Positions 1 through 20,638 of a DNA stretch of 61,870 bases are shown in pieces. The DNA lies in NCBI RefSeq assembly GCF_003046545.1, contig NZ_QAAA01000014.1, positions 1 through 61,870 on the forward strand, written 5' to 3'. The position numbers and the translations under genes were made by a program. This DNA is from Rhodovulum imhoffii (lineage in GTDB: Bacteria > Pseudomonadota > Alphaproteobacteria > Rhodobacterales > Rhodobacteraceae). A model generated the notes under the pieces. It was not told where the DNA came from and made no database searches. It saw only the letters and a list, made by a program, of their open reading frames with translations. Positions within the stretch are counted from its first letter, which is position 1. Every line of letters starts with the position of its first letter.

Positions 1-91
1 TTGCGAACATTGCGAAACGCACTCCTTCTCTTCGGATGCGTATCAACTCGCAATGGCTGATCCCGTCGGCAATGTGGGGCGGCGACACCGC

Positions 92-1808: not shown

Positions 1809-1945
1809 TGAAGTATCCAACCCTTCGCATCTCAATTTTCAATTTTGTGTTGAATTTCAAATCTACGGGATTCGGAAATGAAACCCGCATAAGCATTTGT
1901 TTTATTATGCTAAAATTTGACGAGCGCATACTTTCGGGATATCGG

Positions 1946-1960
1946 TATGTGTCAGACATA
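1946..1960. promoter_or_regulatory. Palindrome in divergent HTH/Ner promoter region
   Basis: TATGT-GTCAG-ACATA is a 5-5-5 inverted repeat lying 20 bases before the Ner-like start and between two divergent DNA-binding protein genes. Related GGGA(A)TATCG-type strings flank it at about 1935-1945, 1961-1975 and 2270-2283. It may be an operator for one of the two proteins or part of a transposase-binding end. The sequence alone does not decide. Confidence 0.35.
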
Positions 1961-1980
1961 GGGAATCGATATTCGGTAAT

Positions 1981-2211: not shown

Positions 2212-2429
2212 CATAGACCACTCCCAAAACGAGGACAGCCACGAAAGCTGGAACTTTCGCGGCCGTCGGGAATATCGATTTCGCGGGCGATGCTCCTTTG
2301 TCCTCCATCACTCATCCCGTGTCAAGACTGACGGCCCGCAGGGACGGTCGGACACGCATGTTTTCATCAATAAAGGAGCGCCCTTGGGCGAACGGCCTGT
2401 CGCGGCCGGACGCTATGGGCATTGGACAA

Positions 2430-5263: not shown

Positions 5264-6216
5264 CCACACAGCAAAATACTGACCGCCGTGCAAATCAGAT
5301 CGCCACCACCGTTGTCGAGTTGCGTGCTTTCTTCGCGCATCACGAAGGCTATGCGATGTTGCGAGAGCAATTCGAAATTCTGCTGGCCGAGCGTTGCGCC
5401 GCTCTGGCGGCCGGACGACCTGTGGAAGCCCGCGGAATAGCGGTGATCGGGGACACAGGAAGCGGCAAAACGACGGCTGTTCGTCATCTCTTACGCAATT
5501 ACCTTCCCGAGGCCGGTGAGGACACGGCTGAAGTTGCGAGTTTTCAGGTGCCGTCGCCGGCCACACTGAAGCATGTCGGCTATGAGCTTCTGAATGCGCT
5601 CGGTTACCCCATGAACCGGCTGCCTACGAGTATGATAATCTGGAGAAAGGTTCGCTTTCACCTACGGGAACGTCAGGTAAAATTTCTCCATCTCGACGAA
5701 GCGCAAGACCTCGCGATCAATCAAAGTGACAAGGAAAAAATTGATGTCGTGAACACTCTGAAATCCCTGATGCAAGAGCCCTCGTGGCCAGTCGGCCTGA
5801 TATTGTCCGGGATGCCGGACCTCAGGTCGATGTTAAACATGGACCCGCAATTGGCGAGGCGTTTTCACCCGGTGGAATTTCAGCCCATTTCAGCCGCGCG
5901 ATCAGGTGGAAATATCATGCAAATCGTTCAGGCATATGGTGCGAAGGCCCGGTTGGAAACAGCATCAGGTCTTGGTGAGCGCGACTTTGTCGAGCGGCTT
6001 GTTCATGCTTCGGCGCACGAGTTTGGCCGCATGATCGAGTTGATCGTCAATGCTATCCGCGAACGTTTGTATGCGGGTGGCGGAACGCTGGAGGCGGTCG
6101 ATTTTGCCGCAGCCTTCCGCCGCGCCACAGGTGTTGTGGACGGAGTGAACCCGTTCCTTGCAGATCAGTTCCAACATCTCGATACTCGGATGCTTCGTGG
6201 GGGCATGGAACTATGA
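5260..6216 (+). CDS. tniB: TniB/TnsC-type AAA+ transposition ATPase
   Basis: The 318-residue protein is the AAA+ regulator that links the transposase to the target selector. Walker A is GDTGSGKTT (about residues 64-72) and Walker B is FLHLDEAQDL (about 145). A GMPDLRSML sensor-I-like segment follows, with RRFHPVEF as a possible arginine-finger region. The ATG at 5260 overlaps the tniA stop (ATGA). An upstream GTG at 5239 is in frame but lies inside tniA and is less likely. The stop overlaps the tniQ start, so the four genes form one coupled operon. Confidence 0.9.
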   Translation: MTTQQNTDRRANQIATTVVELRAFFAHHEGYAMLREQFEILLAERCAALAAGRPVEARGIAVIGDTGSGKTTAVRHLLRNYLPEAGEDTAEVASFQVPSPATLKHVGYELLNALGYPMNRLPTSMIIWRKVRFHLRERQVKFLHLDEAQDLAINQSDKEKIDVVNTLKSLMQEPSWPVGLILSGMPDLRSMLNMDPQLARRFHPVEFQPISAARSGGNIMQIVQAYGAKARLETASGLGERDFVERLVHASAHEFGRMIELIVNAIRERLYAGGGTLEAVDFAAAFRRATGVVDGVNPFLADQFQHLDTRMLRGGMEL

Positions 6217-8096: not shown

Positions 8097-8140
8097 GCGG
8101 TCCGGTTCTATCGCGTTCAGAGAGAAACTATTGGCGACGC

Positions 8141-8155
8141 TACGGCATTGCCGTA
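8141..8155. promoter_or_regulatory. Operator-like palindrome before antitoxin gene
   Basis: TACGGCA-T-TGCCGTA is a perfect 7-1-7 inverted repeat, 38 bases before the ATG of the XRE protein. Antitoxins of the HigA type autorepress through such palindromes around their promoter. Confidence 0.55.
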
Positions 8156-8193
8156 TAGTCATGTGTGTTGAAACAAAGCAGCGCAGGTGAATC

Positions 8194-8520
8194 ATGGTGT
8201 TCGGACAAGAGTTGATCGAAAGCGCGCATGAAGCTCAAGCTATCGCGGAGGGCATATCTCAGCCCGGCGCGGTCTTCACTCCTGAGAGTATCGACGTTGC
8301 GACGCTCCGAAAGTCTCTCGGGCTTTCACAAAGTCGCTTCGCCGAAAGATATTGCCTTCCGGTCAGCACCATTCGCGATTGGGAGCAAGGGCGGCGGCGT
8401 CCTGACCGTGCCGCATTCCTGCTCCTTCGCTTGATTGAGGCGGAGCCTGAGCTCGTCGCGAAGACGCTGGCAAATGCAGATGCGCCAACTGCGCGCAGAA
8501 GCTGCGCGCCCAGTGACTGA
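8194..8520 (+). CDS. XRE/HigA-type antitoxin-like regulator (orphan)
   Basis: This 108-residue protein has a Cro/C1-type HTH (about residues 35-85: VATLRKSLGLSQSRFAERYCLPVSTIRDWEQGRRRPD). The layout is typical of HigA2/NadS antitoxins, with a variable N-terminus before the HTH and a short tail after it. In most such systems a RelE/HigB-type toxin gene precedes the antitoxin. Here there are only 97 bases after tniQ, holding the palindrome at 8141-8155 and a nine-codon frame (8161-8190), so the toxin is absent. It may be a remnant or a solitary regulator serving the mobile element. Confidence 0.7.
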   Translation: MVFGQELIESAHEAQAIAEGISQPGAVFTPESIDVATLRKSLGLSQSRFAERYCLPVSTIRDWEQGRRRPDRAAFLLLRLIEAEPELVAKTLANADAPTARRSCAPSD

Positions 8521-8533
8521 GAACGCGGGCTTT

Positions 8534-8702
8534 TCACCAGAGATCGTCAAACCGACGCGCAGCAGTGCGTGTGTAATGCGCCGTATGTCGCGGGTCGCGA
8601 TGCCCAAGGTAGTCCTGAATCAAGCGAAGGTCATGCCCCCGGTTTGCCAAAGCAAAACCGCAGGAATGGCGAAGCATATGCGGATTAATGTACCCGAGAC
8701 CG
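8534..8702 (-). pseudogene. C-terminal stump of a tyrosine recombinase
   Basis: Reading leftward, about 50 residues match the C-terminal catalytic part of phage/ICE integrases. They include the HMLRHS box (H and second catalytic R), an LGHRD box and the nucleophile tyrosine in HYTR, ending RRFDDLW. The first catalytic arginine and the whole N-terminal half are missing. The homology stops near 8702, seven bases before the MFS gene ends, which marks a recombination junction between two differently composed segments. Confidence 0.7.
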
Positions 8703-8708
8703 GCCCGT

Positions 8709-9899
8709 TCATCCGCGTTGTTCGACCGCGACGCCAGGCGTCTCCAGCGCGGCCAAGGCAACGAGGCAGGCCAGCGTCAGCAGCGCGGCCACCGCAAAGA
8801 GCACCGGCATGCCCGCGACCGAGAGGATCGCCGCGCCGAGCGCCGCTCCGAGGCCGATCGCCCCGTTGAACAGCGCCACGTAAATCGCTGAGGCCGGGAG
8901 GGCATCCTTGCCCGCGTCCTTCAGGATCCAGGTCTGGAGGCCGACGAGGATGATCGCCACCGCGCCGCCCCAGGCAGAGAGGCACAGGCCCGCCAGCACC
9001 GGAGTCCCTGACGTCACCGGCAGCGTCAGCATCCCGAGCGCCACGGACGAGACGGTCAGCGCCCCCATCAACAACGTCTTCAGGTGACGGTCGATCAGCG
9101 CCCCGCAAAGCACGTTGGCCAGAAGACCCGCACCTCCGAAGACGAACAGCAACAAGGCAATCGTCGTCGGACCCACAGCGAGCTGTGTCGCGAGATACGG
9201 CTCGACGAATGTGAAGGCCATGAAATGCGCCATGATCGACAGAATGGTGACCGCAAAGATCGGCACAAAGCGCCCGTCGCGGGCGATCCGCCCCAGTGTC
9301 GCCGCAGAGATCCCCGGCTGTCCCGGCAGGTCCGGCACGCTGCCCCGCAAGGTCACGGCCACCAGCGCGGCCAGCGCCGCCACCGCGAGGAAGGCCGTCT
9401 GCCATCCCGCCAATCCGCCGATGAAACTTGCGGCCGGGATGCCCAGCACGCTCGCCGCAGAGACCCCGCCAAAGATGATCGAGGTGGCGAGACCTACCTT
9501 TTCGGGCGGCACGATCTGCGCCCCCAGCGTGCCGATCATCGCCCAGAAGGCCCCGTGCGCCAAGGCGCCCGCGAGCCGCGCCGCCATAAGCATTCCGAAG
9601 CTGTTCGCGAGGCCCGAGATCAGCGCCGACAGCGCCAGTAGCGCCATGAGGCTGACCAGAAGGGGACGCCTGCGCATCCCGCTAAGCAATGTTACCGAAG
9701 CCAAAGCTGCTGCGGCGCCGATCCAGGCGTAGAGCGTGACGGCGAGGGCCACGGTGGCTTCGCTCTGGCCAAGCTCTGCGCCGATGGGCGAAAGAAGGCC
9801 CACAGGGGCGAGTTCCGTGGTGACAATGGCGAAACTGCCGACGCCGAGCGCCGAAACAGCCAACCACTGCCGCCACGTCGAAGGGACGTGTTCGGTCAT
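8709..9899 (-). CDS. MFS efflux transporter (DHA1-like)
   Basis: A 396-residue inner-membrane protein with about 12 predicted hydrophobic helices belonging to the major facilitator superfamily. The N-terminal half carries the GFAIVTTELAPVGLL-like opening and the RMAG.AHGAFWA motif-C region typical of DHA1 drug/sugar efflux pumps (SotB/AraJ type). The start is the ATG at 9897-9899 with an AAGGAA ribosome site; a longer frame upstream to 9959 overlaps the CMD gene and is not needed. It is the last gene of the minus-strand set AKR-CMD-MFS facing the LysR regulator. The substrate is unknown, but export of a small product made by the neighbouring genes is conceivable. Confidence 0.85.
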   Translation of the reverse strand: MTEHVPSTWRQWLAVSALGVGSFAIVTTELAPVGLLSPIGAELGQSEATVALAVTLYAWIGAAAALASVTLLSGMRRRPLLVSLMALLALSALISGLANSFGMLMAARLAGALAHGAFWAMIGTLGAQIVPPEKVGLATSIIFGGVSAASVLGIPAASFIGGLAGWQTAFLAVAALAALVAVTLRGSVPDLPGQPGISAATLGRIARDGRFVPIFAVTILSIMAHFMAFTFVEPYLATQLAVGPTTIALLLFVFGGAGLLANVLCGALIDRHLKTLLMGALTVSSVALGMLTLPVTSGTPVLAGLCLSAWGGAVAIILVGLQTWILKDAGKDALPASAIYVALFNGAIGLGAALGAAILSVAGMPVLFAVAALLTLACLVALAALETPGVAVEQRG

Positions 9900-9942
9900 A
9901 GTGTCATTCCTTTTGATAAAGTTCGATGGAGCGACGCGGCGG

Positions 9943-10323
9943 TCAGTCCACCGCGGCAAAGGCCTTCTTGGCCGAGGTGATCGCGTTCATGCAGGCCGGA
10001 ACCCCGGCATAGACCGCCACTTGAAGGACGATCTCGACGATCTCCTCTCGGGTGACGCCGGTGTTCATCGCGGCGCGCATGTGGAAATCGAGCTGCCCCG
10101 GCGCGGTGCCCATGGCGGCCAACATGGCCACCGTCAGCATCTCGCGCGTCTTCAGGTCGATCCCGTCGCGCCCGACGACGTCGGCAAAGGACCAGCCCAG
10201 CACCAGTTCGGCGGTGTCGGGGTGAAAGGCGTCGAGGTTGGCGCGCACCTTGTTCGGTGCGCCGGCCTCGAGTTGCGCCAACAGATCCATTGCTGTCGGC
10301 AGAGCGTCGGCAGAGCGGCTCAT
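9943..10323 (-). CDS. Carboxymuconolactone decarboxylase (CMD) family protein
   Basis: This 126-residue all-helical protein matches the CMD/AhpD-like fold family, with the conserved core segments LKTREMLTVAMLAAMG, QLDFHMRAAMNTGVTREEIVEIVLQ and AVYAGVPACMNAI. The CxxC redox pair of AhpD is absent, so a peroxidase role is unlikely. It resembles gamma-carboxymuconolactone decarboxylase-like proteins of unknown substrate. Its ATG overlaps the stop of the aldo/keto reductase (TGA/ATG around 10320-10323), so the two are translationally coupled. Confidence 0.85.
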   Translation of the reverse strand: MSRSADALPTAMDLLAQLEAGAPNKVRANLDAFHPDTAELVLGWSFADVVGRDGIDLKTREMLTVAMLAAMGTAPGQLDFHMRAAMNTGVTREEIVEIVLQVAVYAGVPACMNAITSAKKAFAAVD

Positions 10324-11303
10324 GCGTTCACCCCCTTCATGCCTTCCGCCGTGTAGCGCGCGCCCGCGACGGGCAGCGCCTCGATCAGCGATTCCAGCCG
10401 GGAGACGTCAGCCGCGTCCAGCCGTACCTGCACCGCGCCGACGTTGTCGCGCAGGTACTCCAACCGCTTTGTGCCGGGAATGGGGACGATGTCATCGCCC
10501 TTGGACAGCAGCCAGGCCAGCGACAACTGCGCCGGGGTGCAGCCCTTCTCGGCGGCCATCTTGGCCACGGCTCCGGCGATGCGGCGATTGGTGGTGAGCG
10601 CCTCGTCCTGAAAACGCGGCAGGCTGGCGCGGAAGTCGCCTTCCTTGAAAGCCGCCTCCTCCTGGAAGCTGCCGGTCAGGAACCCGCGTCCCAGCGGCGA
10701 ATAAGGCACGAAGCCCACGCCGAGCGCCCGGCAGGTCGGCAGGATGTCGGCCTCAACGTGACGCGACCAGAGCGAATATTCCGTCTGCACGGCAGCGACC
10801 GGGTGCACCGCATGAGCGCGCTTCAGCGTCTCGGCGCTGACCTCGCACAGGCCGATGCGGGCGATCTTGCCCGCGCGCACCAGGTTCGCAAGACCTTCCA
10901 TCGTCTCTTCGATGGCGCGATCCTGCTCGATGCGGTGCACGTAATAAAGGTCGATCTGCTCGCGCCCGAGCCGTTTCAGCGACGCCTCGCAGGCGCGGCG
11001 GGCGTAGTCGGGCGAGTTGTCTAGGCGGCGCTTGTATTCGCCGGGGTTACGGACAATGCCGAACTTGGTGGCGACCTTCACGTCCGCGCCGCTGTCCGCC
11101 AGGAAGCGGCCAAGCAGGCTTTCGTTGTGATGCGGGCCGTACATGTCGGCCGTATCAAAGAAGTCTACGCCCAGGTCGACCGCTTCGGACAGGACCTTCA
11201 TCGCACTGTCATCGTCGCGCGGACCGTAGAATTCGGACATGCCCATGCAGCCCAAACCAATGGCCGAGACCTCGAATCCGGGGCTTAGTGTGCGGCGTTC
11301 CAT
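10320..11303 (-). CDS. Aldo/keto reductase (AKR, YakC/AKR13-like)
   Basis: A 327-residue (alpha/beta)8-barrel NADPH-dependent oxidoreductase. The catalytic tetrad is visible: D50, Y55 (DTADMYG), K80 (ATKFG) and H123 (YYVHR). The C-terminal cofactor-binding stretch IPGTKRLEYLRDN is present. The ATG at 11303 has a strong GAGGAGGA ribosome site at 11311-11318. It is the first gene of the AKR-CMD-MFS set, divergent from the LysR gene, and its promoter overlaps a duplicated dyad element. The substrate is unknown, but reductases of this type act on aldehydes and ketones. Confidence 0.9.
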   Translation of the reverse strand: MERRTLSPGFEVSAIGLGCMGMSEFYGPRDDDSAMKVLSEAVDLGVDFFDTADMYGPHHNESLLGRFLADSGADVKVATKFGIVRNPGEYKRRLDNSPDYARRACEASLKRLGREQIDLYYVHRIEQDRAIEETMEGLANLVRAGKIARIGLCEVSAETLKRAHAVHPVAAVQTEYSLWSRHVEADILPTCRALGVGFVPYSPLGRGFLTGSFQEEAAFKEGDFRASLPRFQDEALTTNRRIAGAVAKMAAEKGCTPAQLSLAWLLSKGDDIVPIPGTKRLEYLRDNVGAVQVRLDAADVSRLESLIEALPVAGARYTAEGMKGVNA

Positions 11304-11315
11304 GGTGTTCTCCTC

Positions 11316-11345
11316 CTCTTATGAGTGTCTTACTCTTATGAGTGT
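11316..11345. promoter_or_regulatory. Duplicated dyad operator between AKR and LysR genes
   Basis: CTCTTATGAGTGT occurs twice, at 11316-11328 and 11333-11345, a 17-base offset. The second copy contains the dyad ACTC-TTAT-GAGT (11332-11343); the first copy has three of four matching bases in that arm. The pair lies immediately upstream of the AKR ribosome site, so a bound regulator would block AKR expression. It fits an operator for the divergent LysR protein. Confidence 0.5.
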
Positions 11346-12335
11346 TTTAATCCCCTTGCGGGTGCAGCATCACCATGGCAGGCTCTGCACGGTAAGGATG
11401 TAGTAAAGAGTGGCGAAGGGATTTTCAAAATCGGAAAGCTCAATGACAAGCGGCTGATCTGGGACGATGCCAAGGCGTTCCTTGCCGTCGCCCGCGCGGG
11501 CACGCTCAGCGCTGCGGCAGAGCAGATGGGGGTCGGCATTGCCACGCTGTCGCGGCGGGTGGAACGGCTGGAAGAGGCGCTCGGCGCCCCGCTCTTCGTC
11601 CGGCAGCAATCGGGCTACCAGATGACCGAGGACGGTACCGCGCTGGTGCCCGCAGCCGAGGCGATGGAGGCTGCGGCCTACGCCATGCGGGCCGGATGCG
11701 ACGACCGGATTACGATCTCCGGCACGGTCCGGCTGGCCACGGCGGAGAACCTTGCGACGGCCCTGATCCTGCCCGCCCTGCCCGCGCTGCGTCAGGCTCA
11801 TCCGGCGTTGACGGTGGAGATCGTGACCGACATCGCTACGGTGAACCTGCACCGGCGGGATGCGGATCTGGCCTTGCGAATGGTCCGGCCCGAGCGTGGA
11901 AACGTTATCCTTCAAAGACTTGGCGTGCTGGGCTATGGGCTCTACGGCAGCCGCGACTACCTCGAAGCCCACACCGCCGCGCCGGATGCCGCCGGATACG
12001 ACACGCATGATTTCGTCGGATGGGGCGAGGCGCAGGGACATCTCGGCCCCGCGCAATGGGTGGAACGCATATTACAAGGCCGCGCCCCCGCGGTCACCAC
12101 GACGTCGCTGTCGACACAGATCGCCGCCGTGCGCGCCGGGCTGGGCCTCGCCGCTCTGCCGCATTTCCTCGCACGCGAGGCGGGGCTGACCTGCATCGAC
12201 GGTGACCTCGGACTCGACCAGGCGATCTACCTCGTGGTGCAGTCGGACCTGGCCCAGGCGGCACGGGTCGAGGTGGTGGCGCATTTCCTTCGCAATTTGG
12301 TTCAGGGCAACAAGGACATGCTGAGTGGCGGCTGA
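11325..12335 (+). CDS. LysR-family transcriptional regulator
   Basis: The protein has an N-terminal LysR HTH (WDDAKAFLAVARAGTLSAAAEQMGVGIATLSRRVERLEEALGAPLF) followed by a substrate-binding domain to the C-terminus (about 300 residues in all). The only canonical in-frame start is a GTG at 11325, which lies inside the operator repeat and adds about 40 residues with no family resemblance. No ATG, GTG or TTG occurs in frame between there and the HTH, so the true start is uncertain (non-standard codon, or an altered start). It controls, by position, the divergent AKR-CMD-MFS genes and possibly the AfsA-like operon 137 bases downstream. Confidence 0.85.
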   Translation: MSYSYECFNPLAGAASPWQALHGKDVVKSGEGIFKIGKLNDKRLIWDDAKAFLAVARAGTLSAAAEQMGVGIATLSRRVERLEEALGAPLFVRQQSGYQMTEDGTALVPAAEAMEAAAYAMRAGCDDRITISGTVRLATAENLATALILPALPALRQAHPALTVEIVTDIATVNLHRRDADLALRMVRPERGNVILQRLGVLGYGLYGSRDYLEAHTAAPDAAGYDTHDFVGWGEAQGHLGPAQWVERILQGRAPAVTTTSLSTQIAAVRAGLGLAALPHFLAREAGLTCIDGDLGLDQAIYLVVQSDLAQAARVEVVAHFLRNLVQGNKDMLSGG

Positions 12336-12355
12336 TACCGCCGCCGCCACAGCTT

Positions 12356-12372
12356 CCATTTTCGGAAAATGG
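12356..12372. promoter_or_regulatory. Palindrome upstream of the AfsA-like operon
   Basis: CCATTTTC-G-GAAAATGG is a perfect 8-1-8 inverted repeat, 21 bases after the LysR stop and 100 bases before the operon's first ATG. It has no downstream T-tract, so it reads better as a protein-binding site than a terminator. A second, looser dyad (TGCGCT-N9-AGCGCA, 12425-12445) lies between it and the ribosome site. Confidence 0.4.
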
Positions 12373-12471
12373 CTTCTGCCAAACAGCCAAAGATTTCGGT
12401 TTTGAGATCTCGTTAAGGTGAATTTGCGCTCTTTGTTGCAGCGCAGAAACATAACTTAAAGGAGATTACTC

Positions 12472-13083
12472 ATGCCGACATCGACCCTTCTGCTTTCCCG
12501 TTTCCCGGTCAAGCCGGGCTTTGCCACCAAGATGATCGAGGCGCTCGGCGAAAGCGCCGACACCCAGGTTCTGGCTTCCATGGAGGCTGACGAGGTGCTC
12601 CAACTGCGGGCTCTTCCCGACACGCTGACCCTGGCCGAAACCGAGGCGTTGCTCTCGCCCGAGGCCGGCCAGTTCGCTCCGTACCTTGCCGGGGACGTCC
12701 GCCGCGAGCTGCTCAGCTATGTCGAAGCGCCCAAGCCCTGCGCAGGCGTCCTGCCCGACACCCCCTACATCCAGCTGCGCCATGTCGAGGTGAAGCCCGA
12801 ACAGCAGGCGGCCTATCGCACATGGCGCGACGAAACGATCTTTGAAGTGGTGCGCGGGCACGACGCGGCCGAGGTCTTTCTCGCCTACCACTCCGTCATC
12901 AGCAGCCAGCCGGGCGTGATGTTCGTGGCTGGCTTCTCCAGCGCGCCGGAGGACTACACCTCCGCCTTCACCTCCGAGCACTACGCCGAAATCGTGCGCC
13001 AGGCGGGGGACACCTACATCACCGGCGGCACCGACGGCCTCTACACCAAGATTTACTGCACCCCGACCGCCCTGGCTGCCTAA
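12472..13083 (+). CDS. Unrecognised protein with ABM-like repeats, AfsA operon
   Basis: A 203-residue soluble protein with no signal peptide. Two halves (about 1-95 and 100-195) each look like a dimeric alpha/beta-barrel (ABM/NIPSNAP-like) unit. The second half, with YIQLRHVEVKPEQQAAYRTWR and PGVMFVAGFSS, has the strand-helix-strand pattern of that fold. This assignment is structural guesswork and no catalytic residues can be named. The start is clear (AAAGGAG nine bases before the ATG). It is the first gene of a plus-strand operon with AfsA-like, unknown, tautomerase and HAD genes. A chaperone, cyclase-like or monooxygenase-like role in small-molecule biosynthesis is possible but unproven. 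Confidence 0.7.
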   Translation: MPTSTLLLSRFPVKPGFATKMIEALGESADTQVLASMEADEVLQLRALPDTLTLAETEALLSPEAGQFAPYLAGDVRRELLSYVEAPKPCAGVLPDTPYIQLRHVEVKPEQQAAYRTWRDETIFEVVRGHDAAEVFLAYHSVISSQPGVMFVAGFSSAPEDYTSAFTSEHYAEIVRQAGDTYITGGTDGLYTKIYCTPTALAA

Positions 13084-13114
13084 CCCATCGTCCCCGACAC
13101 AAGGAACTCCTCCC

Positions 13115-13900
13115 ATGAACGTACACGCAAACGACACCGTCATGCCTGCGACCTTCATCATCGTGGCCGACAAGTTCGCCGATTTCGCGATCAACGCGCA
13201 GACCATCACGCTCAGCCAGCTCAAGGCGCTGATGGCGCTGCCGACGCACCTCTTGCAGGATCGCAACCGGCTGCTGCCGGGCCAGGGCCTGTCCGATGAT
13301 GATTGCAGCGAGATCGTCACCCTGGTCGAGAATTCCCGCGGCCATGAGGACCGCTGGGACATCACCGGCCTGAAGGCACTGCCCTCCCGGGCCGAGGCCA
13401 AGCTGTCGCACAAGCGCAAGCCCTGCAACACGCTGATCGGCACCCCGCGCACCGACGGTCTGGACCAGTACCGGATCGATCTGTGCATCGACGAAGCCTG
13501 CGAGATGATGGACGACCACCAGACCGGGCAGCACGTGCAGGGCATGGTGCTGGTCGAAGCCGCCCGCCAGGCGTTTCTGGCGGTGACGGAGAAGTTTTTC
13601 CTGCAAGGGATGAACCACAAAAGCTACTTTGTCATCAACGACATGCAGACCCGGTTCCTGGGCTTCGTCTTCCCGCTGGCGGCGCACATGATTTACCGGA
13701 TCGTCGACAAGGACATCAATCTGCGCCGGCAGAAATTCCAGGTCGAGATCGACTTGGTGCAGGGCAGCGAGGTCCGGGCCAGCACCCGCTTCGGCTTCAC
13801 CGCCTATCCAGAGGAGGTGATCTCAGCCAAGGAGGCGGAGCTGGCGATGGTCGCCACGGCGCAGGTCCTCAAGACGGTTCAGCCGCAACACGTGGCATGA
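13115..13900 (+). CDS. AfsA-like hot-dog protein (gamma-butyrolactone synthase family)
   Basis: This 261-residue protein resembles AfsA, which in Streptomyces condenses a beta-ketoacyl thioester with dihydroxyacetone phosphate, the first step of A-factor-type gamma-butyrolactone signal synthesis. The diagnostic first hot-dog helix is seen at about residues 134-153 (DHQTG..VQGMVLVEAARQA). Before it comes the R/H-rich stretch AKLSHKRKPCNTLIG. A second hot-dog-like half (about 175-255) has LGFVFPLAAHMIYRIV and EVRASTRFGFTAY. Length is slightly under the Streptomyces proteins (about 300). The ribosome site is AAGGAA. It is followed by a phosphatase gene, as expected if a phosphorylated butenolide intermediate must be dephosphorylated. 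The family is best known from Actinobacteria; its product here is unknown. Confidence 0.75.
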   Translation: MNVHANDTVMPATFIIVADKFADFAINAQTITLSQLKALMALPTHLLQDRNRLLPGQGLSDDDCSEIVTLVENSRGHEDRWDITGLKALPSRAEAKLSHKRKPCNTLIGTPRTDGLDQYRIDLCIDEACEMMDDHQTGQHVQGMVLVEAARQAFLAVTEKFFLQGMNHKSYFVINDMQTRFLGFVFPLAAHMIYRIVDKDINLRRQKFQVEIDLVQGSEVRASTRFGFTAYPEEVISAKEAELAMVATAQVLKTVQPQHVA

Positions 13901-13972
13901 AGCCCAAGGCCGTCCGGCAGGCGCAAGCAGCCCGCCGGGCGGGGTTCCTCCCCTGACCAAAGGAAACATCCC

Positions 13973-14812
13973 ATGCAGACGACACTCGACCTGAGCCTCA
14001 CGACACAGGGGCCGCTTTATCCGCCGAGCGAGGTCATGGACCAAGACGGCAATTTCATCGTTATCGGTGCGCTGAACCGCGATGACGGCGCAGGCGGCGT
14101 GCGGACCGACTGGGGCGGAGCCATCGTGAAGCCGGACAGCGCCCTGCCCGATTTTGGCGCCCGTGCGCCCTATGACATTTTGCGCGAATTTGGCCCGGAA
14201 ATTCCCGAGGACATCGCAGACAGCGTGCTGCACACCCTGCCCCTGCCCCTGCCCTGCACCAACTACCCGATGCTCTTTGCGCCGGATCAATACCCACAGG
14301 CCAATTCCGAGAGCCGGCCCTCCTACCCATTCCACGACACGCCGATCCCCGATGCACTGCCGGAACACGGGCGGGCACGGACGACCCCGATCCGGCTGCG
14401 GGAGTGGGCCACCGCGCGCGGGCAGGTCACCGTGACCGTCACCGAAGATCAACGTGCCGCAGATTTCGACTGCACCTTCGCCGGGCTGCTTCCCGGGTCG
14501 CTCTATACGATCATGACGCTGCGTGCCCATGACCTCGACCCCGACGGTCCGACACGGCCCGGCCCCTTGGGCATTCCGAATGTCTTCGTGACCGACGCCG
14601 AGGGCCGCGCGACCTTTCATGCGCGACTGCCCGATCCCTTTCCGGATCCGGCCCGCCCGGGGGCGAACCGCGTCATCAACATCGTCGTGCTGTGGATGAG
14701 CTACCAGCAGAGCCACGGCGGCGCCATCGGCCGCTACGGCCTTGGCGGTGACATCCACGCCCAACTGAAACTGCGCGGCCCGTCCTTTGACGACCTGCGC
14801 ACCATTTCCTGA
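13973..14812 (+). CDS. Unrecognised beta-sandwich-like protein, AfsA operon
   Basis: This 279-residue protein is rich in proline and predicted beta strands, with no signal peptide or membrane helix. The C-terminal half (about 140-275) reads like a Greek-key sandwich, with FAGLLPGSLYTIMTLR, GIPNVFVTDAEGRATFHARL, VINIVVLWMSYQQSHGGAIG and GGDIHAQLKLRG. That half resembles the layout of Cu/Zn-SOD-like or CHRD-like domains, though the metal ligands cannot be assigned. I do not recognise a family. The ribosome site is AAAGGAAAC. Its place between AfsA-like and tautomerase genes suggests a part in the same pathway. Confidence 0.7.
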   Translation: MQTTLDLSLTTQGPLYPPSEVMDQDGNFIVIGALNRDDGAGGVRTDWGGAIVKPDSALPDFGARAPYDILREFGPEIPEDIADSVLHTLPLPLPCTNYPMLFAPDQYPQANSESRPSYPFHDTPIPDALPEHGRARTTPIRLREWATARGQVTVTVTEDQRAADFDCTFAGLLPGSLYTIMTLRAHDLDPDGPTRPGPLGIPNVFVTDAEGRATFHARLPDPFPDPARPGANRVINIVVLWMSYQQSHGGAIGRYGLGGDIHAQLKLRGPSFDDLRTIS

Positions 14813-14833
14813 ACCTTCTGAAAGGACACGAAC

Positions 14834-15091
14834 ATGCCCGTTGTACAGATTGCGACCTTCGCCATGGACGACCAGCAAAAAGCCGAGGAACTACTCACCG
14901 AGATGACCGCCACGATGCATCGTGTGACCGGCATCCCGCTCGACAAGATCAGCGTCTACCTGACCGAGATCCAGCCCGCCCGCTGGGCCGACGCCGGGGT
15001 CGTGGGATCGGATCCGGACTTCCGCACCGCCAGCCGACGTATGGACTACGACACGCCTTCGGAGACCGAAAAAGCTCGGAGGACGGCGTAA
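14834..15091 (+). CDS. 4-oxalocrotonate tautomerase-like protein
   Basis: An 85-residue protein starting MPVVQIATF, so after Met removal it has the N-terminal proline that serves as catalytic base in tautomerases (4-OT, CaaD, MIF superfamily). The EELLTEMTATMHRVTGIPLDKISVYLTEIQPARWADAGV stretch gives the expected strand-helix-strand core and the common xxIxPxxWxxAG segment. Such enzymes move double bonds between keto and enol or alpha,beta and beta,gamma positions, which would suit a butenolide or enol-lactone product. The ribosome site is GAAAGGA. Its TAA overlaps the HAD ATG by one base, so the two are coupled. Confidence 0.8.
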   Translation: MPVVQIATFAMDDQQKAEELLTEMTATMHRVTGIPLDKISVYLTEIQPARWADAGVVGSDPDFRTASRRMDYDTPSETEKARRTA

Positions 15092-15750
15092 TGGCCTATG
15101 CCTTTTTCGACGTGGACGACACGCTGATCCGCACCAAGAGCATGTTCGCCTTCTTCCGCTTCTGGGCGGAGGACTGGCAGCAGGACCCGGCCCTGCTGCG
15201 GCGCTTCGAGGAACACTTCCGGCTGGCCCGGGCGCGAGGCGTGCCGCGCGAGCAGCTCAACCGCGACTACTATCGCTTTTTGGCGGGGGTGGAACTGGAC
15301 CGGCTGGAGGCCGCCGGACGCCAATGGGCCCGAGGCGTGATCGGCGAGGCGCTGTTCTTTCCAGCCGCCGTAGCACAGCTGCGCGCCCGGATGCGGCAGG
15401 CGATCGACCCGGTCTTCGTCTCCGGTTCCTTCGAGCCGGTACTGCGCCCCATCGCGGAGCACCTGGGCGTGCGCCACATCCTGTGCACGCGGCTGGACGT
15501 CCGGCTGGACAACTGCCTGACCGGCGAGATCGGCAGGCCCCAGACCATCGGCCAGGGCAAGGCGGAAGCCATCGCGCAGTTCCTGTCGACGCGCCGCGCC
15601 CGGGCTTCGGACTGCTGGGCCTACGGCGACGATATCTCCGACGTGCCGATGTTGGAAAGCGTGGGCCACCCGGTTGCGGTCGGGCAGGACGCGGCGCTTT
15701 GTGGCAAGGCCCAGAACATGGGATGGGCGCAGCTGCCGCTCACAGCGTGA
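15091..15750 (+). CDS. HAD-IB phosphatase (SerB-like), AfsA operon
   Basis: A 219-residue haloacid dehalogenase superfamily hydrolase. All four motifs are visible: FFDVDDTL with nucleophile D7 and acid D9, the VSGSFEP serine (motif II), GQGKAEAI lysine (motif III) and YGDDISDVPML (motif IV). The helical cap between motifs I and II is of the C1 SerB-like kind. In gamma-butyrolactone synthesis a phosphate left from dihydroxyacetone phosphate has to be removed, and this enzyme would fit. That is inference from context. It could instead be a general phosphatase. The gene is the last of the operon. Confidence 0.85.
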   Translation: MAYAFFDVDDTLIRTKSMFAFFRFWAEDWQQDPALLRRFEEHFRLARARGVPREQLNRDYYRFLAGVELDRLEAAGRQWARGVIGEALFFPAAVAQLRARMRQAIDPVFVSGSFEPVLRPIAEHLGVRHILCTRLDVRLDNCLTGEIGRPQTIGQGKAEAIAQFLSTRRARASDCWAYGDDISDVPMLESVGHPVAVGQDAALCGKAQNMGWAQLPLTA

Positions 15751-16109
15751 TCTCGCCAAGGCGTGGTCCTGCGACCGGGGCCGCGCGTCACGCGGGGAAT
15801 GGGTCGTCTGCTCGGTCCTGCAGGCGATGGATCGGGATGCGCAGATGGCACAGCTAGAGGCGATCCGGCAAGAGTTCGCCGCGCGCGATACCCTCGGCGG
15901 CATGCACCAGATCGCGAGGCTTGCGGGGCACCGCGAGGCGAAAACGACCTTTGAAACCTAGACCATTCTGATTAGTGAATTGAGAGGCTATCAACATGTT
16001 TTCTGACGAAAAAGGTCATTTTTGTTTCTGAGCCAAATTAGACCAGCGTGTTTTCAAAGAGTTGCGCGCGGTCAAAAGGACAAGTCGGGTGACTCTCGAC
16101 ATCAAATGC
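15751..16109. other. Junction region with an unrecognised reading-frame remnant
   Basis: On the plus strand a coding-like frame without its own start, about 15760-15961, ends with AIRQEFAARDTLGGMHQIARLAGHREAKTTFET. It is probably the C-terminal stump of a gene lost at the junction, and I cannot name it. Base composition changes here from the GC-rich AfsA segment to an AT-richer stretch (15960-16110) with no recognisable gene. Confidence 0.4.
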
Positions 16110-16355
16110 TTAGCAAGTGTTGTTCCGGGCCTCGTTCACGCCCGGTCCGGATTTGATCCGGATTATTCGGCTTTTCGGCGGCGGTTTCGTGAGTCTCTTC
16201 TGTAGCTCGCCAAAATTTTTTTCAGTGTGTGACACGGAAAGTTGCAGCAGCGCGTTTTTCTGTTCCTGAGTGATTTGGCGAGCGTTAGCGGCCTGTTTAA
16301 CGCCCCGTTCAATCCCACTTGAAATTCGAGATTTAAAGCTCGGATCGGCTGCCAC
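16110..16355 (-). CDS. Small basic hypothetical protein after Dam gene
   Basis: An 81-residue frame starting GTG at 16355 and overlapping the end of the Dam methylase gene by 23 bases. The part KSRISSGIERGVKQAANARQITQEQKNALLQLSV looks helical and protein-like, and the end is basic. No family is recognised. The lysine/glutamine-rich codon use differs from the neighbouring prophage genes. It may be the tail of another gene fused to dam by deletion. Two hairpins lie in its 3' part (CCGGGC-N9-GCCCGG at 16125-16145 and TCCGGAT-ttg-ATCCGGA at 16146-16162). Confidence 0.3.
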   Translation of the reverse strand: MAADPSFKSRISSGIERGVKQAANARQITQEQKNALLQLSVSHTEKNFGELQKRLTKPPPKSRIIRIKSGPGVNEARNNTC

Positions 16356-17142
16356 GACTGTCGTTCTGTTTGCCGATCGTATAGGTGGTTGCCACCTCTG
16401 TCACCCGGAATGCGCCAAAGGTCTCGCGGATCGCGGGCACATCGTTGATCGACATCAGGAAGCGGCCTTTGATCTGGCCAAGCTGGCCCGCCATCCGATC
16501 AAACGCCTCACGGTCGAACAGCTCCTTGCCGTAGTCGCCCTCGCAGCCCCAGTATGGCGGGTCCAGGTAGAACAGCGTTTCCTTTCCATCGTAGCGCGTA
16601 ATGAAGTCGCCATAATCCAGGCATTCGATCACCACCCCCGCCATGCGCGTATGCAGATCCTCGAGCATCGGCTCGAGCGTGGTCAGATTGAACCGGCCGT
16701 GCCGATCCCTGGCAACACCGAAGTTGCGGCCTGAAACCTTACCCCCGAAAGCCGTGCGCTGAAGGTAGAGAAACCGCGCTGCCCGCTCGAGGTCAGTCAG
16801 GGTGTTCGGATCGGTATCGACCAGGCGCAGAAACTCGGCGCGGGTGGTGAGCTGGAAACGCAGCACCTCGAGGAACTGGGGATAGTGCCGTTGCAGGATC
16901 CGGAAGAGATTACTGACATCACGGCCGAAGTCGTTGATGACCTCGCAGCGCGGGCGCATCGAGCGCCGCAGAAAGATGCCGCCCATGCCGACAAACGGCT
17001 CGGCATAGGTCTGGTGCTGGACGCCATCGAGGATGGCTGTGATCCGCTTCGCCAGATTGCGCTTGCCGCCCAGCCACGGAGCGACGGGATTGACGGGTTT
17101 AACGGGGCGTAAATGGTCTCTTTTCATGGGGTGTAGAATCAT
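16333..17142 (-). CDS. dam: D12-class DNA adenine methylase (prophage Dam)
   Basis: The 269-residue protein has the SAM-binding motif I APWLGGKRNLA near the N-terminus, the AEPFVGMGGIFLRR segment and the catalytic motif IV DPPYWG at about residue 195, as in Dam-type (D12, alpha class) N6-adenine methylases. Phage copies protect DNA from host restriction or alter regulation. Length is normal. The last residues (QNDSRGSRSEL) deviate from the family, so the 3' end may be a fusion. It belongs to the minus-strand Mu-like prophage remnant. The ATG at 17142 is preferred; a second ATG lies five codons downstream. Confidence 0.85.
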   Translation of the reverse strand: MILHPMKRDHLRPVKPVNPVAPWLGGKRNLAKRITAILDGVQHQTYAEPFVGMGGIFLRRSMRPRCEVINDFGRDVSNLFRILQRHYPQFLEVLRFQLTTRAEFLRLVDTDPNTLTDLERAARFLYLQRTAFGGKVSGRNFGVARDRHGRFNLTTLEPMLEDLHTRMAGVVIECLDYGDFITRYDGKETLFYLDPPYWGCEGDYGKELFDREAFDRMAGQLGQIKGRFLMSINDVPAIRETFGAFRVTEVATTYTIGKQNDSRGSRSEL

Positions 17143-17270
17143 GCCTCTATGCCGCTTCCCTGATCAGGGGTGGGAGCGGCCATAAGGCTTCTGCTGGTCG
17201 GCGGGGTCCGATGTGAGAGTTTGGCCCCGTGTTGCGGGGCGTTGGCACGCCCCGTGGCCTCCCAAGTCGA

Positions 17271-17645
17271 TCACTCTGGTGATCGGCCGGTGGCCCAAAG
17301 GAGAAAACGCCGCGCGCGCATGGCGGAATAGGCCACCCAGGTGCGCAGGCCCGGTGCGTGTTCGCTGAGAGCGGCTTCGAACCATTGGCTGTCGGCAAAC
17401 GCCTGACGAAACCCTTCCTCAAGGAGCGTGTCGTGGATGGCGGCGGACTTCAGAAAAAACGGATCGTCGGGCGAGAACACCCATGTCAGCCAGCGCGGCA
17501 CCGAGCTTTCAAACTCGCGGTCGACCGGGACTGTCAGCTTCCAGCCGCTTTCCTTCTTGCCGATCCACCATTCGATCGGTTGCGTCGTGACATAGCCACG
17601 TGCACCACCCTTGCGGCACCAGGAGACGTCTGGAAGTGCACTCAT
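17271..17645 (-). CDS. DUF1353-type phage protein
   Basis: A 124-residue protein with the pattern of DUF1353 phage proteins (WWIGKKESGWKLTVPVDREFESSVPRW...VFSPDDPFFLKSAAIHDTLLEEG). These are found near the tail or lysis end of many prophages. The exact role is unknown; the conserved H/D pattern (AAIHD) is retained. The start overlaps the stop of the gpD stub upstream (ATGA at 17642-17645). The C-terminal helix is arginine-rich. It is part of the Mu-like remnant. Confidence 0.7.
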   Translation of the reverse strand: MSALPDVSWCRKGGARGYVTTQPIEWWIGKKESGWKLTVPVDREFESSVPRWLTWVFSPDDPFFLKSAAIHDTLLEEGFRQAFADSQWFEAALSEHAPGLRTWVAYSAMRARRFLLWATGRSPE

Positions 17646-17846
17646 TCCTTGTCCTGCTCGTTGTCACGCTCGGCATCGAAGCTGGTCGTCAGGGTGTCGG
17701 TCAGGCGGTGCTGGACGCGGGTGATCAACCACTCGCCGGTCAGTTCGGGCTTGATGCCCTGGAGATCGACCCTGGCCTCCGCCATCAGGTCGCCCCAGAA
17801 ACCGCCCAGCCCGATGCTGATCTTGCCGCTGGCCCGGCGCGACCGC
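17642..17846 (-). pseudogene. C-terminal stub of phage late control protein D
   Basis: About 60 residues (SGKISIGLGGFWGDL...VDLQGIKPELTGEWLITRVQHRLTDTLTTSFDAE) match the C-terminus of the late control/tail hub protein gpD family. The rest of the gene, normally 330-370 residues, is missing. Upstream the frame runs straight into the morphogenesis gene stub, so a single deletion removed all tail genes between the two. Confidence 0.65.
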
Positions 17847-18020
17847 TCAGGCCGCGCCATCCGGTGCGATCTTGGTGTCAAAGCGGCCGCGAGTGGAGCT
17901 TTCCAGAATGGCCCCGGCCGCGTCGGTCAGCTCGGCCATTTGGAAACCTTCGAGACGGCTCAGCCGCTTGATCGCGGCATCAAGCCCTTCGGTGGTCAGG
18001 GATGCGGTTACACCAGCCAT
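17847..18020 (-). pseudogene. N-terminal stub of phage virion morphogenesis (gpG-like) gene
   Basis: The 57-codon frame starting at the ATG at 18018-18020 and ending at 17847 begins MAGVTASLTTEGLDAAIKRL and continues to FDTKIAPDG, the usual N-terminus of Mu-type virion morphogenesis/tail completion proteins. Full-length copies have about 150 residues. It starts two bases after the stop of the gp36-like gene, giving a coupled phage order, and is cut off where the gpD stub begins. Confidence 0.6.
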
Positions 18021-18022
18021 GC

Positions 18023-18478
18023 TCAAAGCCCCCGCATTTTCCCGCGCGTGAACTCACGCGCAGGGCCACCGGCCACGATCGGGCGCGGTGAGGTTTGGGT
18101 GGCTTCGCCGGTGTCGGGATCCACGGGACCAGGCAGGTTCAGGGACGCGGTGCCCTTGGCGATCTTGTCGAGATGCTTGATCGTGTCTTCATAGCGGCGG
18201 CGATGCTCTTCGGAGAGCACGTCGCGGGCCAGTGCCAAGCGGTAAATCGCGATATCGACGCAGAACTGCTTGAGCAACTCGCTCGCCGCATCGCCCTCGG
18301 CTACCACAAGCGGCAGGCCGTAGCGCACACCGATATAGCTGTCGATTTCACCGGAGGCCGAAGTCAGGGCACGGGCCACGGCATCCGCCTCAACCACGCC
18401 GTCACCATCCCGATCCGCGACATAGAGCGCGTCCTCGGAATAGAGCGTGATGATATCGTCTTGCGTGGCGTAGGCCAT
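18023..18478 (-). CDS. Mu gp36-like protein (DUF1320)
   Basis: The product, starting at MAYATQDDIITLY, has about 151 residues and matches the DUF1320/Mu gp36 family. It has the AYATQDDIITLYSEDAL opening, an acidic DRDGDGVVEADAV turn, SGEIDSYIGVRYGLPL and a helical C-terminal half with LARDVLSEEHRRRYEDTIKHL. Mu gp36 lies between the major head genes and tail genes and is thought to help head-tail connection. The longer frame to 18520 adds residues with no family match. It is the best-preserved structural gene of this remnant. Confidence 0.75.
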   Translation of the reverse strand: MAYATQDDIITLYSEDALYVADRDGDGVVEADAVARALTSASGEIDSYIGVRYGLPLVVAEGDAASELLKQFCVDIAIYRLALARDVLSEEHRRRYEDTIKHLDKIAKGTASLNLPGPVDPDTGEATQTSPRPIVAGGPAREFTRGKMRGL

Positions 18479-18524
18479 GATCGTCCTCTGTTTGGGTTGC
18501 CCGGCCAGCAGTGCTGCCACTCCA

Positions 18525-18762
18525 CCGACCGGGCTTTTCCGACGCGCGCGCCACCTGGGGGGATGTCTGCTCGCCCGCGTGCCGGGTTTGAATTCAGGGG
18601 CAGTTTTCTGACATGCCCAGGTCGCGGCGTGTTGGGGGCTTCGCTTGGCGCTACGCTCTGGGCGTCCCCTGCGCCGGTGCCACGAAGGGCTTTCAAACCG
18701 GCGGTCTATGGGTGCTGACGGACTTGCGGCCCGGACCAGTTGCCCCCTCTCTCAGGTATTGG
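18525..18762. other. Prophage intergenic stretch
   Basis: Between the gp36-like start and the end of the gp35-like stub lie about 240 bases without a convincing gene. It is GC-rich with several short repeats. No terminator with a T-tract was seen. Confidence 0.35.
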
Positions 18763-18900
18763 TCAGCTCGAAGCGGTTGGCGCTTCGAACCCGCTTTCTT
18801 TCATGGCCTCCCAGACGCGGTCGCGTTCCGCTCCGGAGATCTTGCCCAGCTCGTCACCCAGGAGGGCGTTCAAGCTGTCAAGCTTGGGCTTGCCGTCGCG
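18763..18900 (-). pseudogene. C-terminal stub of Mu gp35-like protein
   Basis: On the minus strand about 45 residues (KPKLDSLNALLGDELGKISGAERDRVWEAMKES) resemble the C-terminus of the Mu gp35/FluMu HI1506-like protein, which in Mu directly precedes gp36. The order gp35-gp36 is therefore conserved. The frame is cut at about 18901, where an IS3-family transposase fragment begins on the other strand. Confidence 0.55.
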
Positions 18901-19540
18901 CTGGCAGACCGACTTCACCTATCTCAAGGTCATCGGCTGGGGCTGGTTCTATCTCAGCACGATCCTCGACGACTACAGCAGGTACATCATCGCCTGGAAG
19001 CTCTGCACGACGATGAAGGCAGAGGATGTGACTGATACGCTCGACCTGGCATTGCAAGCCTCGGGCTGTGATCAGGCAACAGTCCTGCACAAGCCGCGCC
19101 TGCTCAGCGACAATGGGTCCAGTTACATATCTGGCGAACTGGCTGATTGGCTCGAGGATCAAAAGATGGACCACGTACGAGGCGCACCATATCACCCGCA
19201 GACCCAAGGCAAGATCGAACGTTGGCACCAGACCCTGAAGAACCGAATCTTGCTGGAAAATTACTACCTGCCAGGCGATCTCAGGCGACAGATCGATGCC
19301 TTTGTTGAGCACTACAACCACCGACGCTACCACGAGAGCCTACAGAACCTCACGCCAGCCGACGTCTACTTCGGGCGCGGAAAGACCATCCTCAAACAAC
19401 GAGAAAGGATCAAACGAAAGACCATCGAAGCGCGGCGCTTGCTTCACCGAAAATCCGCCGCATAATCAAACCAACCAGATGCGCCAGACCCTCTCTTAGT
19501 TCAGGCAGCCATCTGTCCCAAAATCCCTGACGACGGACAT
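18901..19540 (+). mobile_element. Left-truncated IS3-family insertion sequence
   Basis: The right end of the element is visible: read on the minus strand from 19540, it starts TGTCCGTCGTCAGGGATTTT, a TG-start terminal repeat of the IS3 kind. It directly abuts the interrupted FAA-hydrolase reading frame at 19541. The left half of the element, including OrfA and the N-terminus of OrfB, is absent, and position 18901 joins a prophage gene stub. An IS insertion into the FAA gene followed by a large one-sided deletion explains both edges. Confidence 0.65.
18902..19465 (+). pseudogene. IS3-family transposase OrfB, C-terminal part
   Basis: About 187 residues of the rve integrase core are left. They include the three catalytic residues, D in WQTDFTYLKV, D in LLSDNGSSY and E in GKIERWHQT, and the C-terminal HYNHRRYHESLQNLTPADVYFGR. 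The upstream open frame from 18740 is not transposase; it is antisense to the gp35-like stub. Without the N-terminal HTH parts and the left end, the element should not be able to move on its own. Confidence 0.8.
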
Positions 19541-19918
19541 TCGACCTCCCAATCCGACTTGACGGATGCATGTGGAATGACAACAGGATCAAACGGGTCG
19601 GAGAGGGCGGAACTCGCCTTGGAGGCGATGATCCGTTCCTTCGGCGGTTCCGCTCCGGTTTCCGCGGCGTGCCTGGCGTAGTTCAGGCCGATACAGAAGA
19701 AATTTGGCGCAGAGGCCAGGCAGGGTCCGCTCCGGCCCGGATCCGCGACCGCCGGCAGGCTATTTACGTCCAGCCCGCCAACAGCGTCGAGCGCCGCTGG
19801 AGACACCCCCGCACCGGCAAAATCGGCCACCTTGCCCGAAAGATCCCTGACCTGCCCATCAGCATCCAGAAGGCCGGGTTTTTTCCTGGCCTTTCGGGCC
19901 AAAACGCAAAAGTTTCAT
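19541..19918 (-). pseudogene. FAA-hydrolase family gene, frameshifted and interrupted
   Basis: The gene begins at the ATG at 19916-19918 with MKLLRFGPKGQEK and continues, after a shift of frame, with PGLLDADGQVRDLSGKVADFAG...NFFCIGLNYARHAAETGAE and IIASKASSAL. This is the N-terminal 120 residues of a fumarylacetoacetate hydrolase/2-keto-3-deoxy acid dehydratase family enzyme. The shift lies in a run of six A (T at 19879-19884 on the plus strand), consistent with a one-base insertion. At 19540/19541 the frame runs into the IS3 right end. It would have been the gene after the GntR regulator, transcribed in the same direction. Confidence 0.75.
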
Positions 19919-19951
19919 GGAGTTTCCATTCCCCTGTTGCGATCGCCGGGA

Positions 19952-20638
19952 TCAGGAAACCGTCTGGTTGGTGGGTTCGGGAGGCAGATCCTCCCGATCT
20001 TGTTCGAAAAAATCGCGCACGTTAATGACAAGATGCTCCAGATGGCTGTGGAGGTGCTGCTTGATCATCTCTGTATCCCGTGCACGCAGCCCGGCGACGA
20101 TCGCGTTGTGCTGGGCAAGTACCCGATCACGGGACCGCTTTCGGCTGGCCGACAGATAGCGGGCCCGCCAAAGGCGCGCCAGGATAGCGCCGTGGGTGTC
20201 AGCCAGAACCTGATTGCCTGCGGCGCGTACGATGGCCTTGTGGAATTCCATGTCCAGTTCGAAGACATCGACCATGTTCAGATCGTCGTAGAGCCGTTCC
20301 ATGCGGCTCTGGATATCCGCGATTTCCTGAAGCTGGGTATCGCTGGCGCGCTTCACGGCCAGTTCCCCGGAAAGCATCTCAAGCGCCGTCAGAACCTCGA
20401 TATTGTTTTCAACCTCATGCAGGCTCAACTCGGCCACGATCGGACTGCGGGCCGGGCGCAGGATCACCAGCCCCTCTTTGGCAAGGATGCGGATTGCCTC
20501 ACGCATCGGTGTGCGGCTGACCCCCATTTCGGCGGCATTGTCGCGTTCCTTGACCGAGGTGCCGGGCACCAGCTTGCCCCGCAGGATGTCCCTGCGCAAC
20601 TGCGTCGCGATCTGTTCTGCCAGCGTGTTTTCAGCCAT
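19952..20638 (-). CDS. GntR/FCD-family regulator of the sugar-acid locus
   Basis: The 228-residue protein has an N-terminal GntR winged HTH (about residues 5-72: LRRDILRGKLVPGTSVKERDNAAEMGVSRTPMREAIRILAKEGLV) and an all-helical FCD ligand-binding domain (about 80-215) with the metal-site histidines in MEFHKAIVRAAGN and ...QHNAIVAGLRARD...HLHSHLEH. FCD-type GntR proteins sense sugar acids and other carboxylates. It faces the TRAP operon, and two TGGTATACCA palindromes lie between them, with further copies at 32768 and 34902, so it is the likely regulator of all these promoters. The gene downstream of it is the broken FAA gene. Confidence 0.9.
   Translation of the reverse strand: MAENTLAEQIATQLRRDILRGKLVPGTSVKERDNAAEMGVSRTPMREAIRILAKEGLVILRPARSPIVAELSLHEVENNIEVLTALEMLSGELAVKRASDTQLQEIADIQSRMERLYDDLNMVDVFELDMEFHKAIVRAAGNQVLADTHGAILARLWRARYLSASRKRSRDRVLAQHNAIVAGLRARDTEMIKQHLHSHLEHLVINVRDFFEQDREDLPPEPTNQTVS

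Follow-up and report, generated by a model that had tools for sequence, protein, structure and literature searches.

What does a compact set of genes around an AfsA-family protein do in Rhodovulum imhoffii, and does it form a system of its own? The genes are located on contig NZ_QAAA01000014.1, whose positions 1 to 61,870 (61,870 nucleotides) constitute the window, and a sequence-only reading had pointed to five plus-strand genes at 12472–15750 as a candidate new operon that might produce a small diffusible lactone. All five open reading frames (ORFs) are indeed open at these positions, and each has a homologue in Ruegeria pomeroyi, in the same order and with 52–72% identity across at least 85% of each protein length, which argues that they are not chance ORFs. 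The five genes are only one part of the full unit, which covers 8709–15750 and comprises nine genes. The same nine genes are found on the megaplasmid of R. pomeroyi DSS-3 with order and orientation kept and 52–72% protein identity, and judged by this correspondence, 8709–15750 is the counterpart of the DSS-3 diffusible-killing (GBL) cluster. The gene set is thus already known, and the claim of novelty falls, as a plasmid search led to the killing cluster reported in PMC7426152. The account favoured here, and held to be likely, is that of a horizontally acquired killing cluster of the DSS-3 type, in which an AfsA-dependent small lactone or furanone is made and a LysR-type regulator provides self-induction. 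R. pomeroyi is a model marine bacterium, and the literature searched (open-licence PMC articles, with bioRxiv outside the scope) gave no product or structure for the DSS-3 killing substance; the diverged counterparts narrow the shared gene set to nine and provide a testable candidate operator.

Correspondence with the Ruegeria pomeroyi killing cluster

The phenotype of the DSS-3 cluster is described in PMC7426152. A screen for lost killing gave seven mutants, six of which carried insertions in this cluster. The afsA gene (SPOA0342) was hit three times, SPOA0341 twice, and the predicted regulator SPOA0344 once, and transposon insertions in these genes abolish diffusible killing. The seventh mutant, in a sulfate adenylyltransferase gene, displayed weaker killing and was set aside. 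The mutants also differ in immunity: afsA mutants kept it, SPOA0341 mutants showed reduced recovery beside the parent, and recovery of the SPOA0344 mutant was below detection. Furthermore, compared with the afsA mutant, the wild type expressed ten cluster genes 4- to 60-fold more strongly, SPOA0344 being the exception. It follows from gene order and the wording of PMC7426152 that SPOA0341 is hypB and SPOA0343 is hypA (names given here to the two unnamed proteins of the R. imhoffii cluster), and that SPOA0344 is the LysR-type regulator, a word that is absent from the main text.

The divergent arms of the R. imhoffii cluster meet at the LysR gene (11325–12335, plus strand; assigned by Pfam), which is 61% identical to its counterpart by gene order, SPOA0344; its true start is uncertain, and homology begins at ~11412. 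Downstream on the plus strand are hypA (12472–13083; 203 residues; 58% identity to SPOA0343, its counterpart by gene order), the gene of the AfsA-family protein (13115–13900; 261 residues; PF03756; 53% identity to SPOA0342), hypB (13973–14812; 279 residues; 63% identity to SPOA0341, again by gene order), a 4-OT-like tautomerase gene (14834–15091; 85 residues; PF01361; 72% identity to the DSS-3 counterpart), and a HAD-IB phosphatase gene (15091–15750; 219 residues; TIGR01490; 52% identity). On the minus strand, an aldo/keto reductase (AKR; 10320–11303; PF00248; 70% identity) is followed by a PcaC-like carboxymuconolactone-decarboxylase-family (CMD) protein (9943–10323; PF02627; 72% identity), which stays under the PcaC equivalog cut-off in NCBIfam (84.4 vs 155.7 bits), and by an MFS transporter, presumably an exporter (8709–9959; PF07690; 54% identity). 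The adjoining reductase and exporter named in the sequence-only reading are thus real, with the CMD and LysR genes completing the set. Its pairing of a HAD phosphatase with a Pro-1 tautomerase is likewise borne out, as the former matches TIGR01490 with 126.9 bits (cut-off 98.3) and has its motifs DVDDT, SGS, K157, and GDDISD intact, while the latter matches PF01361 with 27.8 bits (cut-off 22) and begins with MPVV, so that Pro would be N-terminal once Met is removed. The AKR motifs appear to be kept as well.

The DSS-3 cluster kills in a manner that depends on cell density, and its authors offer two readings that they leave undecided in the main text, namely that a lactone-like product is the antimicrobial itself or that it is a butyrolactone-type signal (PMC7426152). 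Taken on its own, the second reading would have the cluster make signal only, i.e., an A-factor-like butyrolactone switching on an antimicrobial encoded elsewhere, as in Streptomyces. While the density dependence fits such a role, it is unlikely, as 10 of the 21 genes changed in the afsA mutant (out of 4,252) lie within the cluster, although the other 11 leave room for a remote weapon. In addition, six of the seven screen mutants map to the cluster and the seventh still killed at a higher starting ratio, and none of the nine cluster genes encodes a TetR-type receptor in a Pfam search.

Self-induction through LysR offers a different explanation of the same data. The afsA mutant loses expression of ten cluster genes but not of SPOA0344 (PMC7426152, main text), a pattern that would fit a regulator dependent on a ligand made through AfsA. 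If an AfsA-dependent product activates LysR, an afsA mutant growing beside its parent could still respond to product released by the parent and keep its immunity, a response closed to a regulator mutant; this matches the outcome in PMC7426152. Self-induction would thereby cover most of the facts and appears to be the simplest account. Some observations nevertheless weigh against the favoured account. In the main text of PMC7426152, hypB mutants lost resistance, whereas afsA mutants, upstream in the same gene run, kept it, which simple polarity fails to explain and which activation of LysR leaves unexplained as well. No reported metabolite was found, so the lactone chemistry is deduced from the AfsA and HAD families. 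Finally, killing and immunity have been shown in DSS-3, whereas the R. imhoffii cluster is known from sequence alone.

The two clusters share candidate operators in the same two regions (described below), while the R. imhoffii copy sits in another mobile setting. They also differ in that PMC7426152, in its main text, counts three regulators, whereas one is seen in the R. imhoffii window. At E 1e-10, neither the downstream LysR gene nor the upstream winged-helix gene of DSS-3 is matched in the other loci examined or in positions 5001–20000 of the window.

The AfsA-family protein and its proposed chemistry

The assignment of the 261-residue protein to the AfsA family stands, as a profile search matched residues 99–226 to PF03756 with 50.9 bits (cut-off 24, E 2.1e-13). 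In an alignment of homologues (A4; 30 of 48 scan loci together with L011, L012, and R. imhoffii), H135, H140, R151, and Q152 are invariant and E148 nearly so. The protein comprises one recognisable hotdog (99–226) after an N-terminal part of ~95 residues, and a single AfsA stretch is found by Pfam in the R. imhoffii, DSS-3, L064, and L065 proteins. Canonical gamma-butyrolactone synthases carry two AfsA hotdog repeats, a feature that is not seen here. Comparison of the N- and C-terminal halves using hhalign (32 alignment rows; L011, aligned on the wrong strand, excluded) detected no second hotdog in the N-terminal part (probability 0.2%, no positive control), and the protein failed NF041195, the model for canonical synthases such as ScbA and BarX, with 25.4 bits against a cut-off of 200; both results speak against butyrolactone chemistry of the canonical kind. 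A search of the protein's profile against the PDB gave nothing credible. By these profile matches, the cluster protein is an AfsA-family member outside the canonical butyrolactone synthase model. Two domain matches do occur elsewhere, as PF03756 hits a single reading frame twice in two other family genomes, although in neither does the second hit reach the cut-off. In another family genome (L006/L007, G404:C75), two AfsA-domain matches lie inside a frame of 4264 residues, possibly a megasynthase.

It could be speculated from the single hotdog, the unrelated N-terminal part, and the failure of NF041195 that the protein is AfsA-like without AfsA chemistry, i.e., another kind of hotdog enzyme acting in a different small-molecule pathway. 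This is very unlikely, given that PF03756 is matched above its cut-off and the four residues are invariant, with E148 close behind. The HAD-IB partner found in 49 of 51 loci, together with the ketosynthase III and acyl carrier protein (ACP) genes of many actinobacterial loci, also argues for AfsA-type chemistry.

In the favoured account, the single-hotdog AfsA protein would condense a beta-ketoacyl thioester with a three-carbon phosphate, e.g., dihydroxyacetone phosphate, giving a phosphorylated butenolide from which the HAD enzyme would strip the phosphate. The AKR, the tautomerase, the PcaC-like protein, hypA, and hypB may then tailor the product into a small lactone or furanone, which the MFS protein would export. 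The product or a close precursor would activate LysR, which may bind a palindrome located both in front of hypA and within the LysR/AKR region and thus switch on both arms, one serving biosynthesis and the other export or protection. The molecule acting as signal and the one acting as weapon would then be identical or closely related. Of the small diffusible lactone proposed earlier, a diffusible small molecule remains plausible, while the butyrolactone type is one of two published readings and sits poorly with the NF041195 result.

The A-factor/ScbA/BarX pathway of Streptomyces resembles the present set in that an AfsA-family enzyme is adjoined by a phosphatase and a reductase, and an AfsA protein with a HAD enzyme would suit the A-factor route, which is a point for a signal-only role; failure of the ScbA/BarX model is a point against it. 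The pathways differ in that one recognisable hotdog is present here, LysR replaces the TetR receptor, and the hypA, hypB, tautomerase, and CMD genes are extra. The route to 2-alkyl-4-hydroxymethylfuran-3-carboxylic acid (mmf) in Streptomyces coelicolor likewise includes an AfsA homologue and a phosphatase, a likeness by description only.

A candidate LysR operator

The palindrome TTTCC-N6-GGAAA is a candidate LysR operator. In R. imhoffii, one copy (11422–11437) lies within the LysR frame, close to the 5' end and ahead of the divergent AKR-CMD-MFS arm, and the other (12353–12368) between LysR and hypA. The gene layout of the DSS-3 type, i.e., a hypA-AfsA-hypB-tautomerase-HAD run with LysR and divergent AKR-CMD-MFS, is shared by seven clusters (R. 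imhoffii, L013, L015, L017, L018, L059, and L060; six complete and L060 incomplete), and all seven carry the palindrome ahead of both arms with no more than one mismatch. Exact copies are present in 5/7 clusters upstream of hypA and in 6/7 in the LysR/AKR region. Across 1000 dinucleotide shuffles, matches with one mismatch allowed were found on average in 0.112 clusters on the hypA side and in 0.049 in the LysR/AKR region, and exact copies in 0.001 and 0.002, respectively. Exact copies were found in 6 of the 82 loci examined, all six of this layout. The hypA-side regions are 34–58% identical in 19 of 21 pairs, and as only two close pairs reach 74% and 84%, the clusters represent about five independent lineages. 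The main text of PMC7426152 makes no mention of an operator, binding site, palindrome, or promoter.

The operator step is weakened by several findings. Both R. imhoffii palindromes bear one mismatch, and the window contains five one-mismatch matches vs 2.04 expected, a number reached in 7 of 100 shuffles. The forward strand of the genome has 142 such matches vs 89 in a reversed control. Among the matches listed for the R. imhoffii genome are seven exact copies, all of them outside the cluster. By these background counts, the sites are not significant in the R. imhoffii genome alone, and the case rests on position and conservation. Moreover, the regions used for testing the pattern were also those that had revealed it, and since the AKR-side copy lies inside LysR codons, protein constraint may contribute to its conservation.

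Distribution, kinship, and mobile setting

The distribution of the cluster was followed in 51 loci, comprising 48 from a scan of genome contigs with a hypB pair profile, DSS-3 (L013), a Streptomyces plasmid (L064), and R. imhoffii. A previous contig scan, which used only the AfsA protein, returned 25 pattern matches and no relative, and was superseded by the hypB pair profile. While hypB is present in 51/51 by choice, AfsA and hypA each occur in 50 loci and HAD in 49; 37 loci have the tautomerase. The homologues are not confined to one operon of primary metabolism, as a neighbourhood survey of these loci showed. Both hypothetical neighbours had been reported in 29 of 35 organisms that encode an AfsA homologue (PMC7426152, main text), and the co-occurrence pattern of HAD, tautomerase, ketosynthase III, and ACP is new relative to that paper.

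The core is thus also found in many actinobacterial genomes, where ketosynthase III (27/33 loci) and ACP (13/33) hint at the substrate and constitute a plausible supply for the AfsA step. Both are found in 0/18 proteobacterial loci, and the lack of ketosynthase III there leaves the acyl donor unaccounted for, a further point against the favoured account. Such absences are soft, because the flanks of scan loci extend at most 10 kb and some contigs are short. Among the exceptions, L045 is without AfsA, HAD, and tautomerase, and L058, on a short contig, is without hypA and tautomerase. In L060 (Shimia marina, 5859–6401), hypB is matched to query residue 177 only, and HAD and tautomerase are missing though the DNA runs on for 10 kb; by its gene content, it is a broken or interrupted cluster. 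In a Paracoccus metagenome-assembled genome (MAG; L016, 6733–7367), an MFS fragment adjoins a partial hypA, and CMD, AKR, and LysR were not found, reflecting deletion or misassembly. Two Bartonella genomes (L046 and L047) have CMD-type, hypA, AfsA, hypB, and HAD genes together.

The two proteins left unrecognised in the sequence-only reading, hypA and hypB, have neither a Pfam match at E up to 1 nor an NCBIfam match at E up to 0.1. They represent two conserved families without a Pfam name inside a cluster of known phenotype. Pfam ABM is matched weakly by 7 of 35 hypA family members (best E 0.011), and the hypA profile has no match in the PDB. The hypB family is strongly conserved, with 66 invariant columns in 41 sequences, and its profile gave nothing credible in the PDB (two matches, E 0.41 and 0.82). 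In the phylum, hypB is found in 2 of 398 genomes drawn, R. imhoffii being one. Among six further genomes with AfsA-type proteins, all from the same family or class, it was found in none (0/6; no positive control), so the AfsA domain alone does not mark the pathway. The two nearest AfsA relatives among these six are L067, with an adjoining HAD gene, and L066, without hypA, hypB, and HAD in the stretch examined. A distant hypB relative in G873 (E 2.6e-10, aligned over residues 113–238 only) has no Pfam match and gives no hint of function. The distant hypB relative at L068 (8031–8981) has what we read as a signal-peptide-like start and lies in an unrelated setting.

It may tentatively be proposed that hypA, a single-hotdog AfsA, hypB, and HAD, often with the tautomerase, form a cross-phylum pathway distinct from A-factor synthesis, which makes an antibacterial lactone or furanone by means of two new families. 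In the clade of R. imhoffii and DSS-3, LysR would sense the product through TTTCC-N6-GGAAA, making the weapon its own inducer. Possible as it is, this broader proposal carries less confidence than the account of the R. imhoffii cluster itself.

The R. imhoffii cluster was probably gained by horizontal transfer. In a hypB tree of 43 rows (alignment A2 with L013 and L064; A2 holds 40 of 48 scan loci and A3 34 of 48, each with R. imhoffii added), R. imhoffii is placed among eight that include a Paracoccus MAG, two Ruegeria, Salinarimonas, and three Halomonadaceae (98/92). This intermixing of Alphaproteobacteria and Halomonadaceae fits horizontal transfer. A single branch (83/90), on the other hand, has all actinobacterial rows on the same side, so the tree gives no sign of recent exchange between the two phyla. 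A PF03756 match occurs in 1 of 16 genus genomes and in 6 of 394 genomes sampled from the family, with R. imhoffii counted in both. Five genus genomes have long matches to the right flank; for the four of these that were compared, nucleotide homology begins at 19528–19541, which marks the right edge of mosaic DNA. To the left of it, the matching stretches of the four relatives have no blastn match at E 1e-5, and tblastx gave short scattered pieces only. PF03756 is absent from the four genomes, whose remainder was not searched as DNA for the left part. The cluster therefore lies in mosaic, apparently foreign DNA that the four relatives lack at the corresponding site.

Such a setting raises the question of whether the cluster, carried as silent cargo in mobile DNA, serves no function at present. 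Surrounding it are Tn7-like genes, an integrase remnant, and genes for a Mu gp36-like protein and an IS-type integrase; PF03756 is rare in the genus, and both candidate operators are mismatched. Yet all nine ORFs are open, their lengths are comparable to those in DSS-3, and the motifs looked for are kept, making silent cargo quite unlikely. A functional cluster of the DSS-3 type is therefore preferred. Among the 25 of 27 listed inverted repeats in positions 1–20000 of the window, none convincingly brackets the cluster.

The Tn7-like transposition genes (2298–8096, plus strand) are context left of the cluster and lie outside the pathway; assigned by Pfam, they encode a TnsA-like protein, whose match is below its cut-off, a transposase with Mu-transpos_C, a TniB-type ATPase, and TniQ. 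The left edge of the cluster carries the C-terminal remnant of a tyrosine recombinase (PF00589; 8534–8761, minus strand), and a DNA methylase gene accompanies the Mu gp36-like and IS-type integrase genes on the right. At 65.4%, the GC content of the cluster exceeds that of the Tn7-like genes (56.5%) and of 19952–61870 (60.5%). Finally, a TIR-domain protein (PF13676; 92–985, minus strand) is encoded left of the Tn7-like genes and is possibly a defence gene.

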